Part shown: positions 4,356 to 61,440 of the stretch, in pieces
How positions within the stretch are numbered: the stretch's first letter is position 1
Layout of the letters: each line of letters starts with the position of its first letter
DNA from: Dysidea avara
Taxonomy: Eukaryota > Porifera > Demospongiae > Dictyoceratida > Dysideidae
Direction of reading: 5' to 3'
Length of the DNA: 64,000 nt
Assembly (NCBI RefSeq): GCF_963678975.1
Contig: NC_089276.1
Span: 31,388,368 to 31,452,367 of the forward strand
Notes under the pieces: model-generated
What the model saw: the letters and a program-made list of their open reading frames with translations, nothing else
What the model was told of the DNA's origin: nothing
The model's database searches: none
Made by a program: the position numbers and the translations under genes

Positions 4356-4852
4356 CAGTGGCGGATCTAGGATTTTTAAAAGGGGGTTTCTGAATGTTGG
4401 TATAGCTGAATAAGGCATCTGATGACATCTCTCGGGAAATTTGTGAGACTTTAGAAGTTCTGAAATCGGATTTTAGGCTATTTTTAGTTACAAATTGCAA
4501 TAAATCGAATGCTTTAAATAAATACTATAGCTAACTATAGGGCAAAGATGGTGACTACAAGCTGTAGCTTTGATTGCTCTATTAGAGTAGTTACTTGACT
4601 GCTCTATTAGAGTATCTCGATCGTTTTTAATGCAGTGAGAGATGAAAAGTGAAGTGTTGCTGAGGGTTTAATAGCTATAAATGGTGTCAGTTAAGTGCAA
4701 CTGCATGCATGCTACTGAAATACAGTGGTATTTAGTTGTTTGCTATGACAAATTGTCAATACAACAATGTTTATATATTTAGACTGCCACTGAGCTAAAT
4801 TTAAAAGGGGGTTTCTGTCGAAACCCCAGAAACCCCTCTAGATCCGCCACTG
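4356..4852. mobile_element. hAT-like MITE, CAGTGGCGGATC end family
   Basis: Ends CAGTGGCGGATCTAG and CTAGATCCGCCACTG are exact inverted repeats, flanked by GTTAT on both sides (4351-4355 and 4853-4857). Inside each end is an AAAAGGGGGTTTCTG stretch. The interior carries two copies of a GACTGCTCTATTAGAG-type motif (4571-4590 and 4597-4623) that recurs in other element families here. Relatives with 8-bp duplications at 8527 and 12115 suggest hAT affinity. Confidence 0.8.
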
Positions 4853-7407: not shown

Positions 7408-8107
7408 GGTGGCGGATCCAGGGGGAGAACATGCCCACACCCCCCCCTTCAAAAAGGGTTCACACTAATTTCAAAACGCATCATGCCCATGGGTGCCCCC
7501 ATGCATATATATTGATATATTATACCACAATTGGTTTCACAAGGTTTCACATGCCCTCTACTATCTAAAGAATGATTTCTTACAATCAGTAGTCCAAAGT
7601 TAGGGTTAGGGTTTGGGTTCAGTATAAATCCAGTCAGGGGTAGGGTTTGGGTTCAGCCGTATTCTTTAATATACACTAGATCACTATTTTTATATTATCT
7701 TGCATTTAAGTACGTCTAAAATTCAGGGTTCTGGCAGCTGGCAGTGGTGGTACGGTTGTTATGGCTCTGATTTGTTATGAAACGTCCTGGGATTGAGCTC
7801 AGAATTTTCACATTTTATTTTTAGTTTTTTACAAGTTTTGAGTTAAAGTCACAAAAGGCATCAAGCGTTATGAAATTAGTGCTACCCTTCAAAAAGACAA
7901 GATCGAGATACTCTAATAAAGCAGTCACAGTGTTCACGAGGCAGTGTAGCTTACTTATGAAGCTATAAATAAGGATTTTATTTTACATACGTGATATATT
8001 ATATATTTGGTAAAGGATAGCTATTATTGCTGTGACCTTTTTTTTTTTGCTCTTCAACTTTTCAGCAATGTGTGCCCCCGTCTTTCCAAACTCTGGACCC
8101 GCCCCTA
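7408..8107. mobile_element. CAGTGGCGGATC-family MITE
   Basis: Left end GGTGGCGGATCCAGGGGGAG and right end CTCTGGACCCGCCCCT form imperfect inverted repeats with C-rich subterminal runs. From about 7900 on, the interior is the same as the element at 16752-17071 in reverse, including the GATCGAGATACTCTAATAAA motif and a poly-T tract before GCTCTTCAACTT. ATGCT occurs at both flanks, a weak target-duplication candidate. Confidence 0.65.
7600..7660 (+). repeat. Short telomere-like TTAGGG stretch
   Basis: TTAGGGTTAGGGTTTGGG is followed 20 bp later by a second TAGGGTTTGGGTTCAG, both inside the MITE. It may be an interstitial telomere-like repeat or simple drift. Confidence 0.4.
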
Positions 8108-16751: not shown

Positions 16752-17071
16752 CAGGGGCGGATCCAAAGTCTGGAAAGAGGGGGGGCACCTTGCTGAAAAA
16801 AAGTTGAAGAGCAAAAAAAAAAAAAAAAAAAGGTCACAATAATAGCTAGTTATCCTTTACCAAATATATTATATTACGTATGTTATGTAAAATAAAATCC
16901 TATTTATAGCTTCCTAAGTAAGCTACACTTCCCCATGAACACTGTGACTGCTTTATTAGAGTGATTGGTGATTGACTGCTCTATTAGAGTATCTCGATCT
17001 TATATACATTTTTTAAGGGAGGGGGGGGGGGGGGCACGTGCCCCCTGTGCCCCCCCCTGGATCCGCCACTG
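16752..17071. mobile_element. CAGGGGCGGATC-family MITE
   Basis: Ends CAGGGGCGGATCC and GGATCCGCCACTG, flanked by TATATAT on both sides (low complexity, so the duplication is ambiguous). It contains a poly-A tract (16813-16831) and two GACTGCT(C/T)TATTAGAG motifs (16946 and 16973), the second followed by TATCTCGATCT. The interior matches part of 7408-8107 in reverse. Confidence 0.75.
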
Positions 17072-17538: not shown

Positions 17539-17856
17539 TATCTAATCAAAAACAGCCAAGCTGTAAAAAAAGGTGCGGCCCCCAAAAAGGCCATGGTGAA
17601 AAAAGATGTGAAATCCAAGGTGGCGGCCAAGAAATGGCTGTGATGGTAGATTAATGGTAAAAATTTTAATAACGACAATTCAGATGAATTTTGTACCACT
17701 TAATTCACCTGAATTGTCGTTATTAAAATTTTTACCATTAACCTACCATCACAGCCATTTCTTGGCCGCCACTTTGGATTTCACATCTTTTTTCACCATG
17801 GCCTTTTTGAGGGCTGCACCTTTTTTTACAGCTTGGATGTTTTTGATTAGATATCA
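17539..17856. mobile_element. Palindromic MITE, complete copy
   Basis: Two arms of about 150 bp are reverse complements. They contain ATCTAATCAAAAACAGCCAA, GTGCGGCC, GATGTGAAATCCAA, GGCGGCCAAGAAATGGCTGT and TAATAACGACAATTCA. Other copies are at 201-520 (half), 45473-45794, 48121-48355 and 50342-50694. The apparent protein frames on both strands come from the mirrored arms. Confidence 0.85.
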
Positions 17857-17879
17857 CTTCTTTTTGTATTTGTATACTG

Positions 17880-17905
17880 CAAAGCCGGCCTATGGCTGGC
17901 TTTGG
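17880..17905. repeat. Module hairpin next to the palindrome
   Basis: Arms CAAAGCCGGCC and GGCTGGCTTTG around TAT. The same hairpin accompanies the palindrome at 330-355, 45422-45446 and 50709-50737. The motif G-C content is far above its surroundings. Confidence 0.85.
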
Positions 17906-18025
17906 GGCTTTTTTAACCCATGTGTTTTTATTTACCACAGGAAGAAGAAAAGAACTTACAGAAGATTTTTAATACTTCAATTATTTTTGATTTTATTATA
18001 TAGTAATTATACAAATTATATACAT

Positions 18026-18645
18026 ATCAAGACACACGGTAGTGTGTCGTGCGGCCCAAGAAGCCGGCGCGTAACACCCGTTAGTATATTGACAAGAAGA
18101 AAGAAAACGCAATTTTCGCACCTCCGTAGCTCTGTGCTGCCTTGATGAAACAGGACGATTTTTGCTGTGGACACTCCCTCTAACTTCAGCACTCCACATT
18201 CCAAATTTGAGCGAAATCGCTTCAAGCGTTCCCGAGATATGCGACTTCAAAAGTTGGCTTAGATTCTTCGTTTTTCTTCTTATTTTCTTCCTCTTTTCGC
18301 ACACTTACAAAACCTGCTATAAAACGTGAACGCCATATCCTATCGCCTTGAAATTTGGCACACAGAAGGGGGGTATAAAGGCACATCTCTGTACCAACTT
18401 TGGCTGGAATACGATAAACAGGCAAAGAGTTATGAGCGATTATTCACGAACAATAACACCAATATGTTGTCACGCCTACAGGGTAAACCGCGTATGGGAA
18501 GAAGCTGAAAATCGGTGGGTGAATAGGTTAACTATTGAACCTCAAATCTTTTGTAGTTTGAAAGAAATCGAGCTAAAAACCAGGAAGATACAACGAAAAA
18601 ACCAACAATGTGTAACAATTATGCAATCGAGATTAGCTAATAAAA
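18026..18645 (+). mobile_element. Composite-element leading block, truncated
   Basis: About 620 bp that by eye is some 90 percent identical to 40177-40803. It starts ATCAAGACACACGGTAGTGT and includes GAAATTTGGCACACAGAAGG and AATCGGTGGGTGAATAGGTT. It stops at GCTAATAAAAA, where the MULE transposon begins, so its spacer motif and satellite are lost or displaced. Peptides read here are not protein-like and are shared by the non-coding copies. Confidence 0.8.
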
Positions 18646-18960
18646 ACGTAGTGGCTATTTGTCCGGTTCCGGACGCCAATTTCACTAGGCTATTCGTCCG
18701 GTTCGGATCGCGTGGTCCTGTTCGTCCGGTACTATTCGTCCGACAGTGTCACCCATAACTCGAGTATCAAACACACTAGTTGTATGAAGGTAAGTTTTGG
18801 GGTGAGTCATATCAAAACTTGTGTAAGATATTCCGGATTTCCGAATGGGTTACGCCCGTTTCGTATAAAATACGTGCGAAATACGCAGTGGTTATTCGTC
18901 CGGCAGCCGGACACCACCTGTCTGCGCTATTCGTCCGGCACTTCCTGTTTGCACACGTGA
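18646..18960. repeat. Clustered TATTCGTCCGG subterminal motifs
   Basis: At least six copies of (T)ATTCGTCCGG or close variants lie near 18655, 18690, 18718, 18733, 18893 and 18928. The right end has them near 31335 and 31368 in reverse. Position and repetition fit transposase-binding sites (inference). Confidence 0.65.
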
Positions 18961-40100: not shown

Positions 40101-43100
40101 ATAAAAAACAAGTGTCAACTTTGTCAAATCATTGCTATAAATTGACTGAATTATTAACATATTCAATTGATTTAATATCAAGACACACGGTAGTGTGTCG
40201 TGTGGCCCAAGAAGCCGGCACGCAACCCCGTGAGTATATTGACAGGAAGAAAGAAAACGTAATTTTCGCACCTCCGTAGCTCTGTGCTGCCTTGATGAAA
40301 CAAGACAAATTTTGCTGTGTACATTCCCTCCAACTTCAGTACTCCACATTCCAAATTTGAGCGAAATCACTTCAGGCATTCCTGAGATATGCGACTTCAA
40401 AAATTGGCTTAGTTTCTTCGTTTTTTTTCTTCTTCTTATTTTTCTTCCTCTTTTCGCACATTTACAAAAACTGCTATAAAACGCGAACGCGTTATCCGAT
40501 TGCCTTGAAATTTGGCACACAGAAGGGGGGTATAAAGGCGCATCTCGGTACCAACTTTGGCTGGAATACCATAAACAGGCAAAGAGTTATGAGCGATTAT
40601 GCACGAAAAATAACACCAATATGTTGTCACGCCTACAAGGTAAACCACGTATGGGAAGAAGCTGAAAATCGGTGGGTGAATAGGTTAACTATTGAACCTC
40701 AAACCTTTTGTGGTTTGAAAGAAATCGAGCTAAAAACCAGGAAGATACAGTGAAAAAATGAACAGTATGTAACAATTACTCAATCAAGATTAGCTAATAA
40801 AAAACGACTGCTTGCCATGCCTACCAGAAAAACCGCTTGGGGTAATGCTTTGAAAATCGCTGTACAGATGGAGTTATCATCTTAGAAAGGCTCTTCAATG
40901 GTGTAGAAGAATCAAAGTTAAAGCCACGGAGTTATAACACGAAATCCAACTTGGTGTAGCAAGTGCGAGATCGAGATACTCTAATAGAGCAGTCATCCTA
41001 ATAGAGCAGTCACCCTGAACAGAATTCAAGAGATCAGTTAGAAATAAGTAACCTGTATAGAGATCAGCTACAAACAAATCACCCTGTAGAGAGTTCAGCT
41101 ACAAACAATTCACCCTGTTCAGACATCAGTTAGAAGAAGTTTTCTTGTAGAGAGTTCAGTTACAAACAAATCACCCTGTTGAAAGATCAGCTAGAAGATG
41201 TCACCTTGTAGATAGTTCAGTTACAAAGAAACCACCATGTAGAGAATTCAGCTACAAACTAGTGACCCTGTAGATACATCAGCTAGAAGAAGTTACCTTG
41301 TAAAGAGTTCAGCTACAAAGAAACCATTCTGTAAAGAGCTCAGCTGCAAACAAATCACCTATACAGAATTCAGCTACAAACAAATCACCCTGTAGAGAGA
41401 TCAGCTAGAAGAAGTTACCTTGTAGATAGTTCAGCTACAAACAAATCATCCTGTAGAGAGATCAGCTAGAAGAAGTTACCTTGTAGATAGTTCAGCTACA
41501 AACAATTTACCCTGTACAGAGCTCAGTTAAAAGAGGTTTCCTTGTAGAGAGTTCAGCTACAGACAAATCACCCTGTAGAGAGATCAGTTAGAAGAAGTTA
41601 CCTTGTAGATCGTTCAGCTACAAACAATTCACCCTGTAAAGAGATCAGCTAGAAGAAGTTACCTTGTAGAGAGTTCAGCTACAAAGAAACCATCATGTAG
41701 AGAATTCAGCCGCAAACAAATCACGTGTAGAGAGTTCAGCTACAAACAAATCTCCCTGTAGAAAGATCAGTTAGAAGAAATCACCTTGTAGAGAGTTCAG
41801 CTTCAAAGAAACAATCATGTGAGAGTTCAGGTAAAAACAATTTACCCTGTACAGAGCTCAGTTAAAAGAGGTTTCCTTGTAGAGAGTTCAGCTACAGACA
41901 AATCACCCTGTAGAGAGATCAGTTAGAAGAAGTTACCTTGTAGATCGTTCAGCTACAAACAATTCACCCTGTAAAGAGATCAGCTAGAAGAAGTTACCTT
42001 GTAGAGAGTTCAGCTACAAAGAAACCATCATGTAGAGAATTCAGCCGCAAACAAATCACGTGTAGAGAGTTCAGCTACAAACAAATCTCCCTGTAGAAAG
42101 ATCAGTTAGAAGAAATCACCTTGTAGAGAGTTCAGCTTCAAAGAAACAATCATGTGAGAGTTCAGGTACAAACAAATTGTCCTGTAGAGAGATCAGCTAG
42201 AAGAAGTTACCTTGTAGAGAGTTCAGCTACAAAGAAACCATCATGTAGATAGTTCATGTACAAACAAATCACCCTGTAGAAAAATCAGCTATAGAAGAAA
42301 TCACCTTGTAGAGAGTTCGGCTACAAAGAAACTATCATGTAGAGAGTTCAACTACAAACAAATCACCCTGTAGAAAGATCAGCTATAGAAGAAATCACCT
42401 TGTAGAGAGTTCAGCTACAAAGAAACCATCATGTAGAGAGTTCAGCTACAAACAAATCGGCCTCTAGAGAGATCAGCTAGAAGAAATTACCTTGTAGAGA
42501 GTTCAGCTACAAAGAAACCATCATGTAGAGAGTTCAGCTGCAAACAAATCACCTGTAGAGAGTTAAGCTACAAACAAATCTCCCTGTAGAGAGATCAGCT
42601 AGAAGAAGTCACCTTGCAGGGAGTTCAGTTACAAAGAAATAAACCATGTAGAGAGTTCAGCTGCAAACAAATCACCCTGTAGAGAGTTCAGCTAGAAACA
42701 AGTCACCCTGTAGAGAGATCAGCTAAAAACAAGTCACCCTGTAGAGAGTTCAGCTAGAAGAAGTCACATTGTAGAGAGTTCAGCTACAAAGAAACTACCA
42801 CGTAGAGAGTTCAGCTGCAAACAAATCACCCTGTAGAGAACTCAGCTACAAACAAATCGCCCTGTAGAAAGATCAGCTAGAAGAAGTTACCTTGTAGGGA
42901 TTTCAGCTACAAACAAATCACCCTGTAGAGAGTTCAGCTGCAAACAAATCACCATGTAGAGAGTTCAGCTGCAAATAAATCACCCTGTAGAGAATTCAGC
43001 TACAAACAAATCACCCTGTAGAAAGATCAGCTAGAAGAAGTTACCTTGTAGAGAGTTCAGCTACAAAGAAACCACCATGTAGAGAGTTCAGCTGCAAACA

Positions 43101-46100
43101 AATCACCTGTAGAGAGTTCAGCTAGAAACAAGTCACCCTGTAGAGAGATCAGCTAAAAACAAGTCACCCTGTAGAGAGTTCAGCTAGAAGAAGTCACATT
43201 GTAGAGAGTTCAGCTACAAAGAAACTACCACGTAGAGAGTTCAGCTGCAAACAAATCACCCTGTAGAGAACTCAGCTACAAACAAATCGCCCTGTAGAAA
43301 GATCAGCTAGAAGAAGTTACCTTGTAGGGATTTCAGCTACAAATAAATCACCCTGTAGAGAGTTCAGCTACAAAGAAATCATCATGTAGAGAGTTCAGCT
43401 GCAAACAAATCATCCTGTAGAGAGTTCAGCTAGAAGAAGTCACCTTTTAGAGAGTTCAGGTACAAAACAACCACCATGTAAAGAGTTCAGCTGCAAAAAA
43501 CTCAATCACCCTGTAGAAAGATCGGCTAGAAGAAGTTACCTTGTAGAGAGTTCAGCTACAAAGAAACCACCATGTAGAGAGTTCAACTGCAAACAAATCA
43601 CCTGAAGAGAGTTCAGCTAGAAACAAGTCACCCTGTAGAGAGTTCAGCTAGAAGAAGTCACATTGTAGAGAGTTCAGCTACAATGAAACTTCCATGTAGA
43701 GAGTTCAGCTGCAAACAAATCACCCTGTAGAGAACTCAGCTACAAACAAATATGCAGTGTAAAAAGATCAGCTAGAAGAAGTTACCTTGTAGAGAGTTCA
43801 GCTACAACGAAACCACCATGTAGAGAGTTCAGCTACAAACAAATCACCTGTAGAGAGTTCAGCTAGAAACAAGTCACCCTGTAGAGAGATCAGCTAGAAA
43901 CAAGTCACCTTGTAGAGAGTTCAGCTAGAAGAAGTCACATTGTAGAGAGTTCAGCTACAAAGAAACTACCATGTAGAGAGTTCAGCTGCAAACAAATCAC
44001 CCAGTAGAAAGTTCAACTATGAACAGATCACCCTGTTGAGAGTTCAGTTAGAAACAAGGAATCCTGTAGAGAGATCACCTAGAAGTATTGCCTTGTAGAG
44101 AGTTCAGCTACAAACAAATCACCTGTAGAGAGTTCAGCTACAAACAAATCACCCTGTAGAGAGATCAGCTAGAAGAAGTCACCTTGTAGAGAGTTCAGCT
44201 ATAAAAAAAACCACCATGTAGAGAGTTCAGCTGCAAACAAATCACCCTGTAGAGAACTCAGCTACAAACAAATATGCAGTGTAAAAAGATCAGCTAGAAG
44301 AAGTTACCTTGTAGAGAGTTCAGCTACAACGAAACCACCATGTAGAGAGTTCAGCTACAAACAAATCACCTGTAGAGAGTTCAGCTAGAAACAAGTCACC
44401 CTGTAGAGAGATCAGCTAGAAACAAGTCACCTTGTAGAGAGTTCAGCTAGAAGAAGTCACATTGTAGAGAGTTCAGCTACAAAGAAACTACCATGTAGAG
44501 AGTTCAGCTGCAAACAAATCACCCAGTAGAAAGTTCAACTATGAACAGATCACCCTGTTGAGAGTTCAGTTAGAAACAAGGAATCCTGTAGAGAGATCAC
44601 CTAGAAGTATTGCCTTGTAGAGAGTTCAGCTACAAACAAATCACCTGTAGAGAGTTCAGCTACAAACAAATCACCCTGTAGAAAGATCAGCTAGAAGAAA
44701 TTACCTTGTAGAGAGTTCAGCTACAAAGAAACCACCATGTAGAGAGTTCAGCTGCAAAGAAATCACCCTGTATAAAATTCTGCAAGAAACAAATTGTCCT
44801 GTAGAAAGATCAGTTAGAAGAAGTTACCTTTTAGAGAGTTCAGCTACAAAGAAACCATTCTGTAAAGAGCTCAGCTGCAAACAAATCACCTATACAGAAT
44901 TCAGCTACAAACACATCACCCTGTAGAGAGATCAGCTAGAAGAAGTTACCTTGTAGATCGTTCAGCTACAAACAATTCACCCTGTAGAGAGAGCAATTAG
45001 AAGAAGTCACCTTGTAGAGTGTTCAGTTACAAAGAAACCACCATGGAGATTTCTGTAATCAATATAATATTATGTGACCGGATTTGCGAAAAGGGGTCTT
45101 CCACACACATCCAATTCCGTAAACGTTGGAGACCATACCTCAGTGTTCAAGTAACATAATAACCTGAAAATTTCACCATGTATTCAGCTATAGTGGTGCT
45201 CACCACTGTCCAAATTTCAAGGCAATAGCTCTTTCCAATCTGAAGTTATCAATTGTCAAAGTTGGCAAATTGGATGTGTGTGGAAGACCCCTTTTCGCAA
45301 ATCCGGTCACATATGTATTATATATATAATTTGTACATTTACTGATAAAATATTTAAAGTACATCTACTTCATCTTTTCTTCTTCCTGTAGTAAAAAAAA
45401 AAACATAGGTTAAAAAAATCCCAAAGCTGGCCATAGGCCGGCTTTGGGGTATACAAATACAAAAAGAAATGAAATCTAATCCAAAACAGCCAAGCTGTAA
45501 AAAAAGTGTGTGGCCCTCAGAAAGGCTATGGTGAAAAAAGATGTGAAATCCAAGGTGGCGGCCAAGAAATGGCTGAGATGGTAGGTTAATGGTAAAAATT
45601 TTAATAATGACAATTTAGGTAAATTTTGTGAAGCGGCACAAAAATTCACCTGAATTGTCGTAATTAAAATTTTTACCATTAACCTACCATCACAGCCATT
45701 TCTTGGCCGCCACCTTGGATTTCACATCTTTTTTCACCATAGCCTTTCTGAGGGCCGCACACTTTTTTTACAGCTTGGCTGTTTTGGATTAGATAATATT
45801 ATCATGACTATTGTGACATAAGTCCCATGATATCGTGATTATCGTGATATTAAATTTTTATATCGTGGTATTACTACACCACAGAAGGCTGAAACTTTGG
45901 TGATCCATTTCTTGGACACCACAGATAATGCTGAGAGAATTAAAACACTTTTTGAAAGTTGTGCAAAAAATTTCAAGTTTATGCTGAGATGGTTACAATA
46001 GAAAATGAAATCAATAGAATCTGTAGCATGTATTACTAAGGTTTAGTTCAACATCTCAATGCATAAAGGGTATGACCTGAGTTTATGGAATATATCATCC

Positions 46101-48054: not shown

Positions 48055-48120
48055 CTACAAAATAAATTATATCACTTAATACAATTTAAAAGCTAGTAGC
48101 TACTACAGTATCCATGCAAA

Positions 48121-48420
48121 ACTGTATGAAAAAGGTGCGGCTTTCAAAAAGCCTGGGTGAAACAAAGTAGTGAAATCTAAGGTGGCAGCCATAAAATGGC
48201 TACAATAACATTGATAAAAAATGCACAAAGCCATTATTTTAAAAAAATTATTGTCATCAACATCATTGCAGCCTTTTCATGACTGCCACACAACATTTTC
48301 ACTCAGGCTTTTTGAAGGCTGCACTCTTTTTATAAAGCTTGGCTGTTTTTGCATAATTTTTTACCTCTTTTTACATTTTAAATATATATCCCAAAGCCCC
48401 TGGTTTTGAGGTTTGTTTTA
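48121..48420 (-). mobile_element. Diverged palindrome and hairpin module
   Basis: Arms at 48130-48200 and 48280-48355 share GGTGCGGCTTTCAAAAAGCC and its mirror with the palindromes at 17.5, 45.5 and 50.3 kb. A degenerate hairpin (CAAAGCCCCTGG...TTTGAGG) follows. It lies just upstream of exon A of the PIDD-like gene, so it is probably in its preceding intron. Confidence 0.65.
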
Positions 48421-50091: not shown

Positions 50092-50859
50092 AGTTTACCA
50101 AAGTAACTCATGCGTAGTTCACCATAGTTTGGTATGGTAGACGTTAATCACATATTTGGCAAGCTTTGGTCACAACCCACAATCGATTCTATTGTGACAC
50201 ATGGTGAAGTATTTCCGTGACATTCCTAGGACTTGTCCGTTTACATTGTCAAATGTAGCAGCAACATTACTAGTGCTTGGAGGTATTGAAAAATAGCAAA
50301 CAGTATATGTACCTTCCATAAAAAGTATCACAGTATTACTAAATCTAATCCAAAACAGCCAAGCTGTAAAAAAAAGTGTGGCCCTCAAAAAGGCTATGGT
50401 AAAAAAAGATGTGAAATCAAAGGTGGCGGCCAAGAAATGGCTGTGATGGTAGGTTAATGGCAAAAATTTTAATAACGACAATTCAGGTGAATTTGTGTTG
50501 TCTCTTCCAAGTTTCACTAGGACTTGGCACCAAATTCGCCTGAATTGTCGTTATTAAAATTTTTGCCATTAACCTACCATCACAGCCGTTTCTTGACAGC
50601 CACCTTGGATTTCACATCTTTTTTCACAATAGCCTTTTTGGGGGCTGCACTCTTTTTTTAGAGCTAGGCTGTTTTTGATTAGATATCACTTATTTTTGTA
50701 TATTCATACCTAAAGCCAGTCTATGGCCAGCTTTAGGTATTTATTTTAACTTGTCTTCATAGAAAGAAGATTATTATGAAGAAGATTTAAATGATTTGTT
50801 TAGCTACATGTACATTTAGGCAATGGTGTTGATTGATCATAAAGATAAGTCACACAGTT

Positions 50860-53260
50860 CGCAGCTGAATACTCTACAGGGAAATGTGTATGTAGCTGAA
50901 AGTTCTACAGGGAAGTAATTGTACTCTTTGACTACATGGTGAATGCTTTGTAGTTGAACTCACCACAGGGTGGCTTATTTCTAGCTGAAACACTATATGA
51001 AATGTAGCTGAATTCTCTCTTATTTCTAACTGATCTCTCTATTGGGTGATTTGTTTCTTATCTAGCTGACATTTTTATAGGGTGACTTGTTTCAAGCTGA
51101 GCTCTCTACAGGGTGATAGCCAATCTTTCTACAGGGTGATTTGTTTCTAGCCGATCTCTAGCTACAGGGTGAATTATTGTGTCTAGCTGATCTGACTTGT
51201 TTCTGCTGACCTCTCTACAGGTAACTTGTTTCTAGCTACACTCTCTACAGGGTGACTTGAAATGTGGTTGAACTCCATTCTGGGTGACTTGATCAAGCTA
51301 ATCTCTCTTCAGGGCAATTTGTTTCTAGCTGATCTCTCTACAGGGCTGCTTGTTTCTACTGAGCTCTCTACAGGGTGACTTGAAAAATAGTTTAATTCTT
51401 TGCAGGTAACAGGGTAACTTGCCTAACTGATCTCTCTACAGGGAGATTTGTTTCTAACGGAATACAATGTATCTTTCTACTGAGAGAGTTTAATTTATCA
51501 GTGCTACGAAATTTCCATGAAATCTCTGAATTCATGTCCATGAAATGACTTTCATGGCATTTTATTGGAATGGGAATTATTTTACTATTCATGGATAATC
51601 CATAGGTGTTTCATAGCACTGTTCTCTGGCAGTGCTACACGGTGACTTCATTCTATCTGATCTCTGTACAGGATGACTTGTTTCTAGCTAATCTTTCAAC
51701 AGTCATTTGTTTCAATCTGATCTTTCTACAGAGTGATTTGCTCCTTACTGATCTCCCTACAGGGTGAATTGTTTCTAACTGATCATTCTACAGGGTGATT
51801 TGTTTCAAGCTGATCTTTCTACAAGGTAATTGAAATGTATCTAATCTCGCTACAGGGTGACTTGTTTCTAGCTGATCTTTCTACAGGTGAGCTGATTTCT
51901 GTACAGGGCGGCTTCTTACTGGCTGAACTCTCTACAGGGTAACTTGTTTATACCAGATCTCTCTACAGGGTGATTTGTGTTTAGAGTTGTACCGATAATC
52001 GGATTGGTAGTTGGTAGAAACCGATAATTAGCTGTTTTTACCATAATCGGAAATCCATTGTAATGGGCTGTGGCCAGCAGATTATTAGTCTATTCAGCTT
52101 CAGCAGCTGCAGTACGACTGGAGGACTGGTGTCAAAGGCTCTGGTATGTACTTGGGTAATTTGTTTATGTTTTGTGGTAACCACAAAGATAAACAGTGAT
52201 GGTTCAGGTCCTAGCCCACTTGTCTGACTATATAGCAACTTTGATTGAGATAAGTGTACAATTTCACAGAATTGGCTTTACTAGCTCTACTTTTAATGGA
52301 GTGTGCACAAATATAATTGTAGGGACCTACAATTGGGTATCGGTTAACTATCAGTAAAACAGGATAAAAATATATTGGATATCGGTTTTCCCTAAAAAGT
52401 GGGAATCAGTACAACTCTATTTGTGTTGAGCTGATCTTTCTACAGGTTGATTTCTTTCTAGCTGCATGATCTCTACAGCGTGAATTGTTTCTAGCTGATT
52501 TCTCTACAAGGTTACTTGTTACTTGCTGAACTCTATACAGGGTGATTTGTTTCGAGCTGATCTCTCTACAAAGTGATTTGTGTGATTTGTTTCCAGCTGA
52601 TCTCTCTTCATGGTGACTTACTTATATATAGCTGCATGAACTATCAGTACAGAGTGGACTTGTTTCTAGCTGATCTCCCTACAGAGTGGCTTGTTTCTAC
52701 TAAAATTTCTATAGGTTGACTTGAAACGTATCTGAACTCTCTGCAAGATGACTCGTTTCTAGTTGATCTCTCTAAAGAGTGATTTGTTTCCAGCTGATCT
52801 CTCTAGTGAGAGATTTACTTCTAGCTGATCTCTCTACTGACAGTCTGTGTGACTTGTTTCTAGCTGATCTTTGTACAGGGTGATTTGTTCTAGTTGATCT
52901 CTGTTTGCTTTTAGCTGATCTTTTCACAGGGTGACTCGTTTTTAACTCTACAAGGTGATTTGTTTTCAGCTGATCTCTCTACAGGATGCTTTGTTTCTAG
53001 CTGACTTATCTACAAGGTGATTTGTTTCCAGCTGGTCTCTCTACAGGATGATTATGTAGCTGATCTTTCTACAGGGTGATTTGTTTCTAGCTAATCTCTC
53101 TACAAGGTAACTTATAGCCAGCTGAACTCTCAACAGGGTGACTTGAAATATAGTTGAATTTTCTTTAGGGTGACTGGTTTCTAGCTGATCTCTCTACAGG
53201 GTGACCTTTTCTTAGTTAATCTCCATACACAGTCGCTTATAACAGTGTTAAATTCTCTAC
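50860..53260 (-). repeat. 31-bp minisatellite array, diverged, reverse
   Basis: Repeats of TAGCTGATCTCTCTACAGGG then TGA(T/C)TTGTTTC are the reverse complement of the copy 1 monomer. Monomers are much less uniform than at 41-45 kb and show many small deletions. No higher-order structure is evident. Confidence 0.9.
51982..52419. mobile_element. hAT-like MITE inside the satellite
   Basis: Ends TAGAGTTGTACCGATAATCG and GGGAATCAGTACAACTCTA are inverted repeats. They are flanked by the perfect 8-bp duplication TTTGTGTT (51974-51981 and 52420-52427). Interior non-coding; repeats of ATCGGTT-type words lie near both ends. Confidence 0.85.
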
Positions 53261-54127
53261 AATACATAGACGAATGCTTTAAGAAGTAATTATTTGATTC
53301 TTAGCTGACTGCTTTATTAGGGTGACTGCTCTATTAGAGTATCTTGATCGCACACTTATTACACCTAGTTGGCTTTCGTAGTGTAACTCAGTAGTGTTTC
53401 ATCTAATCCCTTGTAAACTACTGAAAGATCATTCTAAAATAATTGGTCTACCTCTCTACCTATTTTCAGCTGATTCCATTAACTATTTGCCTGGAAAGCG
53501 TGATAAGTAATACTAAAAACTCGATCATGCGATTTTTACACATGATTGGCGTTTTTGTTATAACTACATGATTGTTAGTGTGATTTCTTTCAAACCACAA
53601 AAGGTTTGCACTACGATAGTTATTCCATCTATAGACCGATTTTCAAGTTATTCTTACCCTGGAGGCGTGACAACAAATCACCTTTGGATTTTTGAAAAAT
53701 CACGCATAACTCTCTTGTTCTTTTCTGATCTCTACCAAAATTGGACTGCAAATGTACAGTATTATGCTCTTACTGCCCTCCAAATTTTAAGTAAATCAAC
53801 CAAAGCACATGCAAGTTATTACAATTTTTCTAAAGTGTGCGAGATGAAGAAGAAAAAGAAGATTAAGAAAAATACGAAGAAAATAAGACGAACTTTGAAG
53901 GCACGTATCTCGGTGATGGATGGGCGGATTCACCTCAAATTTGGAATATGAAGCGCCCTACCCCAAGGGAGTTTCCACAGCTAAAATGGTTAATTTCCAC
54001 TCAGCCATTATCAAGCTATGGATGCATGAAAACAGCGTTTTCTTGGTTCCTGTAAAATACACACTTGTCTGTCGCGCGCCCACACTGGCTGTACTTGGCC
54101 GCACAACACACTATCATGAGTCTTGAT

Positions 54128-58959: not shown

Positions 58960-59400
58960 TGTATACCTGCCTTGTGGTTGTCATGTTTCATTCTGGCCGT
59001 GCTTTAGCTGGTCATGTTGTTTGAGACTGTTGTTGCAATTGTTGTACTGTTTGTTGTCATTGTTGTGTCATCTCATTCTGACGATCGTGCTTTAGCTGGT
59101 CATGTCATTTGAGACTGTATGTTGTTGTCATTGTTGTTGTGTCATCTCATTCTGGCGATCGTGCTTTAGCTGGTCATGTCGTTTGAAACTGTTTGTTGTT
59201 GTAATTGTTATTGTGTCATCTCATTCTGGCGACTGTGCTTTAGCTGGTCATGTCATTTGAGACTGTTGTTGTCACTGTTGTTGTGTCATCTTGTTCTGGT
59301 GACCGTGCTTTAGCTGGTCATGTTGTTTGAGACTGTTATTGTGTCATCTCTCATTCTGGTGATTGTGTTGTAACAGGTGGTGGCGTTTCAGATGTTGTTA
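58960..59400 (+). repeat. Tandem array of about 80-bp units
   Basis: About five units carry TCTCATTCTGGCGATCGTGC, TTTAGCTGGTCATGTC and TTTGAGACTGTTGTTGT. Unit length varies through the GTTGTT-type tract. Non-coding. Directly followed by the splice-signal array. Confidence 0.9.
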
Positions 59401-59469
59401 TGGTATTTTGTCATACTTAATCCTTCACTCATTGGCACCATAAAGTGTAGTGATTTGTATTTTACTTTT

Positions 59470-61440
59470 TTCATGGTTGTTACAGGATTGTGATTGTTGG
59501 ATTTGGCCACATTAGACTGTTTTGTCTTGTGTCTACTTGTCATCAGAATGTAAGTGCAAAATGTATATATTGTATTCTAATTTATTTGTGATTGTTACAG
59601 AGGTGTGATAACTTGATTGTTGAAATAGGAGACTTTTCACTGAAGTACACCTTCAATCATCTTGGCAGCATGGAGTGATATTGATTGTTGAAATAGGAGA
59701 CTTTTCATTGTTGTACGTCTTCTGTCATCTTGGTAGCATGGAGTGAGTATTTTTGTATTCTATTTTAATAGTCATTGTTACAGGAAGTTGATAACTTTTG
59801 ATGGTTGAAATAAGAGATTTTTCATTGTCGTACATCTTCAGTTATCTTGGCAGCATGGAGTGAGTATGAACTGTATTTTTGCACTATATTTTAATAGTCA
59901 TTGTTACAGGAGTGTGATAACTTTTGATCGTTGAAATAAGAGACTTTTCACTGTCATACATCTTCAGTCATCTTGGCAGCATGGAGTGAGTATATGAACT
60001 GTATTTTTGTACTCTATTTTAATAGTCATTGTTACAGGAGTGTGATATCTTTTGATCGTTGAAATAGGAGACTTTTCACTGTCGTACATCTTCTGTCATC
60101 CTGGCAGCATGAAGTGAGTATATGAACTGTATTTTTGTACTCTATTTTAATAGTCATTGTTACAGGAGTGTGATATCTTTTGATCGTTGAAATAGGAGAC
60201 TTTTCACTGTCGTATATCTTCTGTCATCTTGACAGCATGGAGTGAGTATAAAATGTATTTTTGTATTCTATTTTAATAGTGATTGTTACAGGAAGGTGAT
60301 AACAGATGATCATTGAAATAAGAGACTTTTCACTGTCGTGCATATTCAGTCATCTTGGCAGCATGGAGTGAGTATGAACTGTATTTTTGTACTCTATTTT
60401 AATAGTCATTCACATTGTTACAGGAATGTGATAACTTTTGATCGCTGAAATATGAGACTTCACTGTTGTACATCTTCAGTCATCTTGGCAGCATGGAGTC
60501 AGTATGAACTGTTTTTTGGTATTCTATTTTAATAGTGATTGTTACAGGAAGGTGATAACTTTTGATCGTTGAAATAAGAGACTTTTCACTGTCGCACGTC
60601 TTCAGTCATCTTGACACCATGGAGTGAGTATGAACTGTATTTTTGTACTGTATTTTAAGTCATTGTTACAGGAGTGTGATAACTTTTGATCATTGAAATA
60701 AGAGACTTTTCACTGTTGTACATCTTCCATCATCTTGGCAGCATGAAGTGAGTATGAATTGTATTCTTGTATTCTATTTTAACAGTCATTGTTACAGGAG
60801 TGTGATAACTTTTGATTGTTGAAATAAGAGACTTTTCACTGTCATACATCTTCCGTTATCCTGGCAGCATGCATATGGAGTGAGTATGAACTATATTTTT
60901 GTACTCTATTTTAATAGTCGTTGTTAAAGGAGTGTGATAACTTTTGATCATTGAAATAAGAGACTCTTCACTGTCGTACATCTTCCGTCATCTTGGCAGC
61001 ATGGAGTGAGTATGAAATGTATTTTTGTATTCTATTTTAATAGTGATTGTTACAGGCATGTGGCTACTTGATTGTGGAATTGAAGAGTTATGACTGCCGT
61101 ACATCTTCAGTCTATGAAGTGAGCATAAACAGTATTAATTTTATGTTCTATTTTAATAATAATTGTTACAGACATATGTGATAACTTTTGTTTATTGAAA
61201 TTAGAGACTTTAGACGTCATGAAGTGAGTGTGAACTGTATTTTTGTGTTCTAATTTGTAATGTTACAGGGGTTGATACAAATTGATAGTTGAAATAGGAG
61301 ACTTCACTGTCATACATCGTCAGTAATTTTGGCAGCATGGAGTGAGTATGAACTGTATTTTTATGTTCTATTTTAATAGTGATTGTTACAGGGGTGCGAT
61401 AACTGATTGAAGATTTCAGACTGTCAGTCTTCATAGTTTG
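59470..61440 (+). repeat. Tandem array of about 126-bp exon-like units
   Basis: About 16 units. Each has ATTGTTACAG (ending near 59485, 59600, 59783, 59909, 60037, 60165, 60291, 60423, 60547, 60671, 60797, 61055, 61171, 61268 and 61391; one mutated near 60928). Next comes a block of about 76 bp with GTGATAACTTTTGATCGTTG, AGAGACTTTTCACTGTCGTA and ATCTTGGCAGCATGGA, then GTGAGTAT and a T-rich stretch TATTTTTGTACTCTATTTTA leading to the next unit. The layout is acceptor, block, donor, 50-bp pseudo-intron. All three frames of the block contain stops, so it is non-coding. Confidence 0.85.

Follow-up and report, generated by a model that had tools for sequence, protein, structure and literature searches.

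A stretch of 64,000 nucleotides (nt) from the sponge Dysidea avara (assembly GCF_963678975.1, contig NC_089276.1, positions 31,388,368 to 31,452,367; hereafter the window, numbered from its first letter) harbors at 40178-45793, on the plus strand, a single mobile element with sharp ends, as comparison of its copies across the genome confirmed, and at the center of this element lies a satellite array of 31-bp units. We place the element, with a probability of about 0.7, among the non-autonomous members of the Helitron superfamily and predict a partner that moves it. It offers a clear case of a satellite array that a mobile element spreads as cargo and that evolves further inside this element, on a scale of thousands of ends in the genome and with a young subfamily.

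Anatomy of the element

The borders of the element read A, then TCAAGACACAC...ACAGCTTGGCTGTTTTGGATTAGA, then T, with the flanking A at 40177 and the flanking T at 45794. The features of this copy (copy 1), all on the plus strand, are the following.

40178-45793, complete element (TC...GA), with both ends and module order common to 18 of 21 copies
40178-41016, conserved head (5' block)
40182-40199, 5' subterminal hairpin GACACAC-GGTA-GTGTGTC, 4 nt from the 5' end
40200-40208, 5' subterminal repeat GTGTGGCCC (consensus GTGCGGCCC), with its inverted counterpart at 45752-45760
40973-40995, CTCTAATAGAG motif at the border of head and array, dispersed elsewhere too
41052-45049, 31-bp tandem array, about 130 units with higher periods of 61 and 92 (Tandem Repeats Finder score 3797)
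45062-45323, internal inverted repeat, a second fold-back module in the young subfamily
45420-45448, CAAAGC hairpin of 29 nt
45474-45794, terminal palindrome with arms 45474-45627 and 45641-45794, the right arm forming the 3' end
45752-45760, 3' subterminal inverted repeat GGGCCGCAC, 33 nt from the 3' end
45770-45782, 3' terminal hairpin ACAGC-TTG-GCTGT, 11 nt from the 3' end

Both ends are built on one plan, in which AT is followed by a few bases, a hairpin and then the 9-bp repeat GTGCGGCCC in inverted orientation (GTGTGGCCC in the window copy), which lies outside the hairpins, 22 nt from the 5' end and 33 nt from the 3' end. The 3' end itself reads ..GGATTAGA (TTAGA), and the arms of the palindrome of copy 1, 154 nt each and separated by a spacer of 13 nt, are complementary at 96% of positions. 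By folding energy the CAAAGC hairpin is strong (z = -6.48, equaled by 0 of 200 shuffles), whereas the 3' terminal hairpin, conserved in sequence among copies, is weak on this measure (z = -0.87, equaled by 36 of 200). Covariation in the hairpins rests on two examples: the 5' hairpin variant ACTCAC-GGTA-GTGAGT, found in one copy, preserves the pairing, and in the CAAAGC hairpin of the second complete copy of the window (copy 2, see below) a T-A pair replaces the C-G pair of copy 1. The 5' hairpin of copy 2 has one mismatch. The internal inverted repeat may be a captured miniature inverted-repeat transposable element (MITE), because its ends (ATGTGACCGGATTTG) recur near the start of the window, at 964-1014.

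Other readings of these modules were discarded. A frame of about 195 amino acids is open in some copies of the head, yet the longest open frame of the head matched no Pfam family (0 families), and we do not regard the head as a gene. Six Rfam matches all fall within the palindrome and each scores under the gathering threshold of its family, as hairpin look-alikes would. Three pieces of the array folded with z between +1.28 and -0.83, and the array was dismissed as a folded structure.

One order of modules in 18 of 21 copies, and thousands of ends

We searched 551 Mb of genome sequence in 108 contigs. Searching with the head produced 5,716 first-look candidates, and the 40 matches listed are 95-100% identical to it, each over at least 822 of 824 bases. 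The window copy and the 20 next best head matches, taken with roughly 8.5-9.5 kb of downstream sequence, formed a set of 21 copies, and in 18 of these head, array, internal inverted repeat and palindrome follow one another in the same sequence and direction. In the three others, the stretch taken stops inside the palindrome (L011) or while still in the array (L024), or no tail was found (L021); the palindrome of L026 has an internal deletion. Complete copies measure 3.5-8.0 kb and their arrays 1.9-6.4 kb. The young subfamily, 18 copies drawn from the best matches, has a mean divergence of 2.6% in the heads and 2.9% in the tails. Two large open frames, one of long interspersed nuclear element (LINE) type in the array of L011 and one of Gypsy type beside L020, were judged by eye not to be partners of the element.

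The exact 5' end occurs 7,589 times in the genome, and the 3' end, with up to 3 mismatches, 10,843 times; as both palindrome arms are counted, the latter figure corresponds to roughly 5,400 tails. Reversed-pattern controls gave 0 for these counts. Contig C1 was examined as far as 6.87 Mb; of the 33 palindromes listed there whose arms are exact, 25 lie no more than 12 kb from a listed head that is correctly oriented (random expectation: mean 5.2, maximum 12 in 500 draws), the pairs having a median span of 4,479 and a shortest of 694. By extrapolation, full copies would number about 4,000 and occupy some 18 Mb, about 3% of the genome.

These results bear on an earlier note on the window, made from its sequence alone, which had described two full copies with a fixed order of modules and argued that a satellite array is being moved as the center of one element. 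Both copies are present (copy 1 at 40178-45793, plus strand; copy 2 at 54126-50344, minus strand), the order holds, and shared ends, unrelated flanks, empty sites and collinear arrays (see below) bear out the movement of the array. The modules that the note had named were all found; it had overlooked the internal inverted repeat, which every one of the 18 complete copies from the young subfamily carries. The CTCTAATAGAG motif, listed there as a module, does stand at the border of head and array and is not exclusive to the element, as three of its five matches in the window fall outside both copies. Likewise, the CAAAGC hairpin was matched at its place in 16 of the 18 complete copies; it is not obligatory, being unmatched in L015 and L019 and cut in L044.

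We also weighed whether the modules were joined by chance, or whether a satellite block was duplicated together with its surroundings. Such a history could draw on the occurrence of the CTCTAATAGAG motif elsewhere, on fragments with one end only and on the lack of correlation between head and tail divergence. Against it stand the common order and borders of 18 of the 21 copies amid unrelated flanks, the pairing of palindromes with correctly oriented heads on C1 far above the random maximum, and the empty sites; we give this explanation almost no credence, and the random joining that the earlier note had named as a refutation was not borne out.

As a side observation, the three occurrences of the border motif (GAGATACTCTAATAGAGCAGTCA) outside both copies lie at 4596-4618, 7905-7927 and 16973-16995 of the window, and similar pieces occur in two loci coding for a Rep domain (L029 and L030).

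Insertion between A and T

The comparison of many copies proposed in the earlier note gave constant ends, unrelated flanks and empty sites joined between A and T. Leaving out L019, an aberrant insertion in which the first element bases and 23 bp of target are missing (by eye), the element is directly preceded by A in 39 of 40 cases (the exception, L069, has T) and directly followed by T in 57 of 57. This T is followed by A in 81% of cases; seven positions rich in A/T come next, and A or C is more common at +10 and +11 (percentages for +2 to +11 precede the re-anchoring of two 3' flanks), and the 5' side is nearly free.

Joined flanks were compared for copies other than L011, L021, L024 and L026, and the pair L022 and L017 was not used as an empty site because of an (AT)n tract. 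The best empty site belongs to an element on C1 (L067/L087) that is nested in the head of another copy: once joined, its flanks are identical to the head consensus over the 9 nt that precede the junction and the 43 nt that follow it (by eye). The flanks of L028, compared with window 16943-17001 and with L023, also join between A and T, over an alignment of only 52-59 bp, as do those of L016 compared with its own neighbor, with small indels a few bases on. These empty sites are paralogous and show no duplication beyond AT.

The fold-back palindrome belongs to the 3' end

All 20 palindromes that we read from the 40 best matches are attached to a tail and end in ..GATTAGA followed by T; in L051 and L053 the sequence enters another copy after a short AT-rich spacer. 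A stand-alone palindrome MITE was thus not seen among these 20, and old stand-alone relatives could lie beyond the best matches. Seven palindromes drawn from different subfamilies were compared in 21 pairs, which are not independent of each other; in 19 of them the right (outer) arms are more alike than the left arms (in one pair by 0.001). This is consistent with constraint on the outer arm and with an inner arm derived from it as an inverted copy. A parallel may be found in maize Heltir, whose inverted repeats resemble Helitron 3' ends, as cited in the paper on the ATon elements. Excerpts of that paper and of others underlie the comparisons with ATon, ISL2EU and Helitron-like elements made here (PMC4067079, PMC7492417, PMC8268682, PMC4482050, PMC4778049, PMC5148889, PMC3422177).

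An alternative is a cut-and-paste (DDE) transposon of the ATon or ISL2EU sort, which would duplicate AT on insertion and whose MITE-like part would be the palindrome. At the sites seen, an AT duplication and an insertion between A and T yield identical letters. According to the excerpts, the ATons of Aedes aegypti are non-autonomous, flanked by A and T, present in thousands of copies, in some cases furnished with subterminal palindromes, and have no known partner. They are under 500 bp, however, and have terminal inverted repeats, neither of which applies to our element, and the excerpts mention no satellite for them. The ends of the element share only ATC and the 9-bp subterminal repeat and are not terminal inverted repeats. 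ISL2EU elements target A-AT-T and usually have inverted repeats starting with GG; here there is no such start, and position -2 is A in 20% and position +2 is T in 12%. Finally, 20 of 20 palindromes read among the best matches are tail-attached. We consider a DDE element unlikely. The resemblance to the unexplained AT-inserting ATons is nonetheless of interest, as the partner of the element would bear on what moves such elements.

The satellite array travels with the element

Each of the 153 pairs of arrays has 294 to 935 24-mers in common that occur only once in either array, and the collinear share of these has a median of 94% (least, 81%). The arrays were therefore inherited with the element from a common ancestor and then altered by internal duplication and deletion. 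Sharing peaks in the first 250 bp (the per-position values are not normalized and serve for ranking only), and within one array 2 to 55% of the 40-mers are repeated. Central satellite arrays are already known from such elements in Drosophila and oyster, according to the excerpts cited above, and are not new here.

Exact tail-to-head fusions

Tail and head of neighboring copies on the same strand lie within 30 nt of each other in 142 cases. Exact fusions, GGATTAGA-TCAAGAC, account for 62 of the 100 cases listed (counted by eye), where independent insertion with the measured target preference would give 8 to 12, and in 22 of the 38 non-exact cases only (TA)n separates tail and head (by eye). Tail-to-tail neighbors matched the pattern at 5 sites, 0 of them exact. 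Thirteen fused junctions involve heads of several subfamilies, and the fusions therefore arose repeatedly rather than by amplification of one dimer. Such a precise head-to-tail joint is described for the circles of Helraiser. Taken together, the fusions favor, without proving, a rolling-circle or circle step.

Tandem 5' ends were also seen in L060 (1-401) and L061 (1-401), where a head truncated to its first 69 or 55 nt runs straight into a new head. The short piece ends in A just before TC, and both pieces seemingly belong to the same subfamily; they are perhaps an aborted start or a local duplication.

Comparison with known Helitron-like elements

A canonical Helitron (Helitron1), as laid out in the excerpts, starts with TC, inserts between A and T, has a hairpin about 11 bp from its 3' end and ends in CTRR. 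Our element shares with Helitron1, for example Helraiser, the 5' TC, the target, a hairpin 11 nt from the 3' end (13 nt long, shorter than the typical 16-20 nt, and weak by energy) and exact head-to-tail joints. In contrast to Helitron1, it has TTAGA in place of CTRR, a 5' hairpin and a long palindrome, and no coding capacity was found in it. We keep it out of canonical Helitron1 because of its 3' end.

The earlier note had named Helentron-like elements with central repeats as the nearest known idea. The idea holds only as a resemblance, in the hairpins at both ends, the subterminal inverted repeat and the central repeats, and it fails at the target, as Helentrons insert between T and T; for this reason we keep the element out of the Helentron/HINE group. 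HINE, DINE-1 and Cg_HINE likewise have two conserved modules around a satellite-like array, a subterminal inverted repeat, a 3' palindrome and no target duplication. Unlike them, the element lacks terminal T runs, its subterminal repeat is 9 bp against 11-15 bp in HINE, and its 3' end is a fold-back with 154-nt arms preceded by a second inverted repeat and a 29-nt hairpin. Non-canonical Helitron2 elements bear a hairpin at each end and have asymmetric inverted repeats, one of them close to the 3' terminus. The Fusarium members FoHeli1-2 share with our element the TC start, the two hairpins and an inverted repeat some 20-50 bp from the 3' terminus, but they end in ATTTT and are reported between TNAT and A or T, and their 12-bp repeat lies within the hairpins, whereas ours is just 9 bp long and lies outside them. 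The proto-Helentron of Phytophthora inserts between A and T despite a Helentron-type Rep; unlike our element, it is autonomous, about 14 kb long and ends in CTAG.

On the best reading, the element chooses its target in the manner of Helitron1, has ends of the Helitron2 type and a fold-back at its 3' end, and encloses a satellite; it mixes traits used to separate Helitron1 from Helitron2 and Helentron. A description of the family was not found in the open-access literature on Helitron-like elements, as far as its accessible parts go; no repeat database was searched.

A predicted enzyme and a possible mechanism

A search for the Rep domain (PF14214) gave 150 scored matches from 230 first-look candidates, and canonical Helitron ends were recognized by eye in the genome; the enzyme class of Helitrons is therefore present. 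We infer that an enzyme of the RepHel type, supplied in trans, would nick at the 5' TC and recognize the subterminal hairpin and the GTGCGGCCC repeat. One strand would be copied or peeled through the whole unit, satellite included, and the process would stop at the 3' hairpin or fold-back palindrome, which may act as the terminator. The strand would then be joined between A and T, with A and an AT-rich stretch following on the target, and the 31-bp array would ride as cargo, lengthened or shortened by internal duplication and deletion between rounds.

Several observations weigh against the assignment to the Helitron superfamily, in addition to the ambiguity of an AT target and the departure of TTAGA from CTRR described above. 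No element ends were found at any of 11 sampled Rep loci, namely L029 and L030, both with long frames, and nine others, the latter drawn across score classes and read for about 3.2 kb upstream of the Rep domain only; some have long frames, so that their 5' ends may lie beyond the piece read. With patterns excluding the usual neighboring sequence we found three 3' ends and four 5' ends, and all 7 lie more than 300 kb from the listed Rep matches; a partner with the usual neighboring letters would escape this search. The autonomous relative that the earlier note had suggested looking for, a RepHel partner with these ends, thus did not appear in this partial search. Divergence of head and tail is uncorrelated between copies (Spearman -0.13, p 0.10), which fits a star-like burst or exchange between copies. 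As for the fusions, the number expected depends on a simple model of insertion sites, and tail-to-tail fusions, if exact, would create long perfect palindromes, which may be lost through instability or be missing from the assembly. Moreover, L103, the only tandem in which the reading reached the second tail, has tails with an identity of just 86.7%, which fits re-insertion on the regenerated A-T junction rather than a fresh dimer.

Hairpins near both ends, the lack of a duplication and a fixed short target would equally suit another single-strand (HUH) transposon. IS200/IS605-like and Replitron-like systems are of this kind, and the element would then use both of its subterminal hairpins. The Y1 transposase domain (Y1_Tnp) had 0 matches in the genome, with a control positive in 5 of 14 genomes and no search made for the Replitron enzyme, and we hold an HUH transposon of this sort to be quite improbable.

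More tentatively, one may picture a separate branch of rolling-circle transposons, in which both ends would carry a hairpin and GTGCGGCCC, the 3' terminator would be a 320-bp fold-back in which the 3' end stands twice, in opposite orientations, and the whole, built to carry and spread a satellite, would be moved by a Rep outside the sampled loci. We regard this reading as doubtful.

Further observations were made at the Rep loci. The canonical Helitrons L030 and L039 share a 5' end, A followed by TCTATATTATAAGAGTGAAAAGCCGTCTGTC, and L029 has an apparent end ..GGGCAGGTAACAATGCTAG followed by T (by eye). Rep loci L031 (1234-1270) and L032 (1176-1212), in coding-strand orientation, have 37 identical bases with a GGGGC..GCCCC hairpin in common, perhaps a Helentron-type 5' end. 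A 212-bp piece at the Rep locus L037, 96% identical to the head of another copy, was rejected as an end of the Rep element and is seemingly a neighboring fragment.

Other copies and fragments in the window

The window contains further pieces of the family.

50344-54126, minus: complete divergent copy 2, with unrelated sequence inside its array
18027-18646, plus: 5'-end-only fragment, inserted beside the tail of a minus-strand relative
17541-17953, minus: tail-only fragment (gap, hairpin, palindrome), adjoining the head at 18027
1-520, plus: decayed array and tail of another copy
48116-48398, minus: decayed palindrome and hairpin of another copy

Because their heads are 66% and their tails 84% identical, copies 1 and 2 belong to different subfamilies, and the internal inverted repeat gave no match in copy 2. 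At 1-520, where the last three modules had been described, the hairpin survives, along with remains of the array and 55 bp that match the start of the palindrome; the long palindrome is gone, the best arms being 16 nt at 81%. The first module reported at 18026 proved to be a real 5' end, with a head reaching only to 18646, next to which the minus-strand tail fragment (17953-17541) had been missed; the sequence before this insertion is readable in L053 (comparison by eye).

Elsewhere in the window lie other tandem arrays with 74-bp and 126-bp units (59060-61112), for which no link to the element was seen, a piece of a Mutator-like element (MULE) transposase (PF10551; 24502-25113) and a reverse transcriptase domain (PF00078; 32240-33226).

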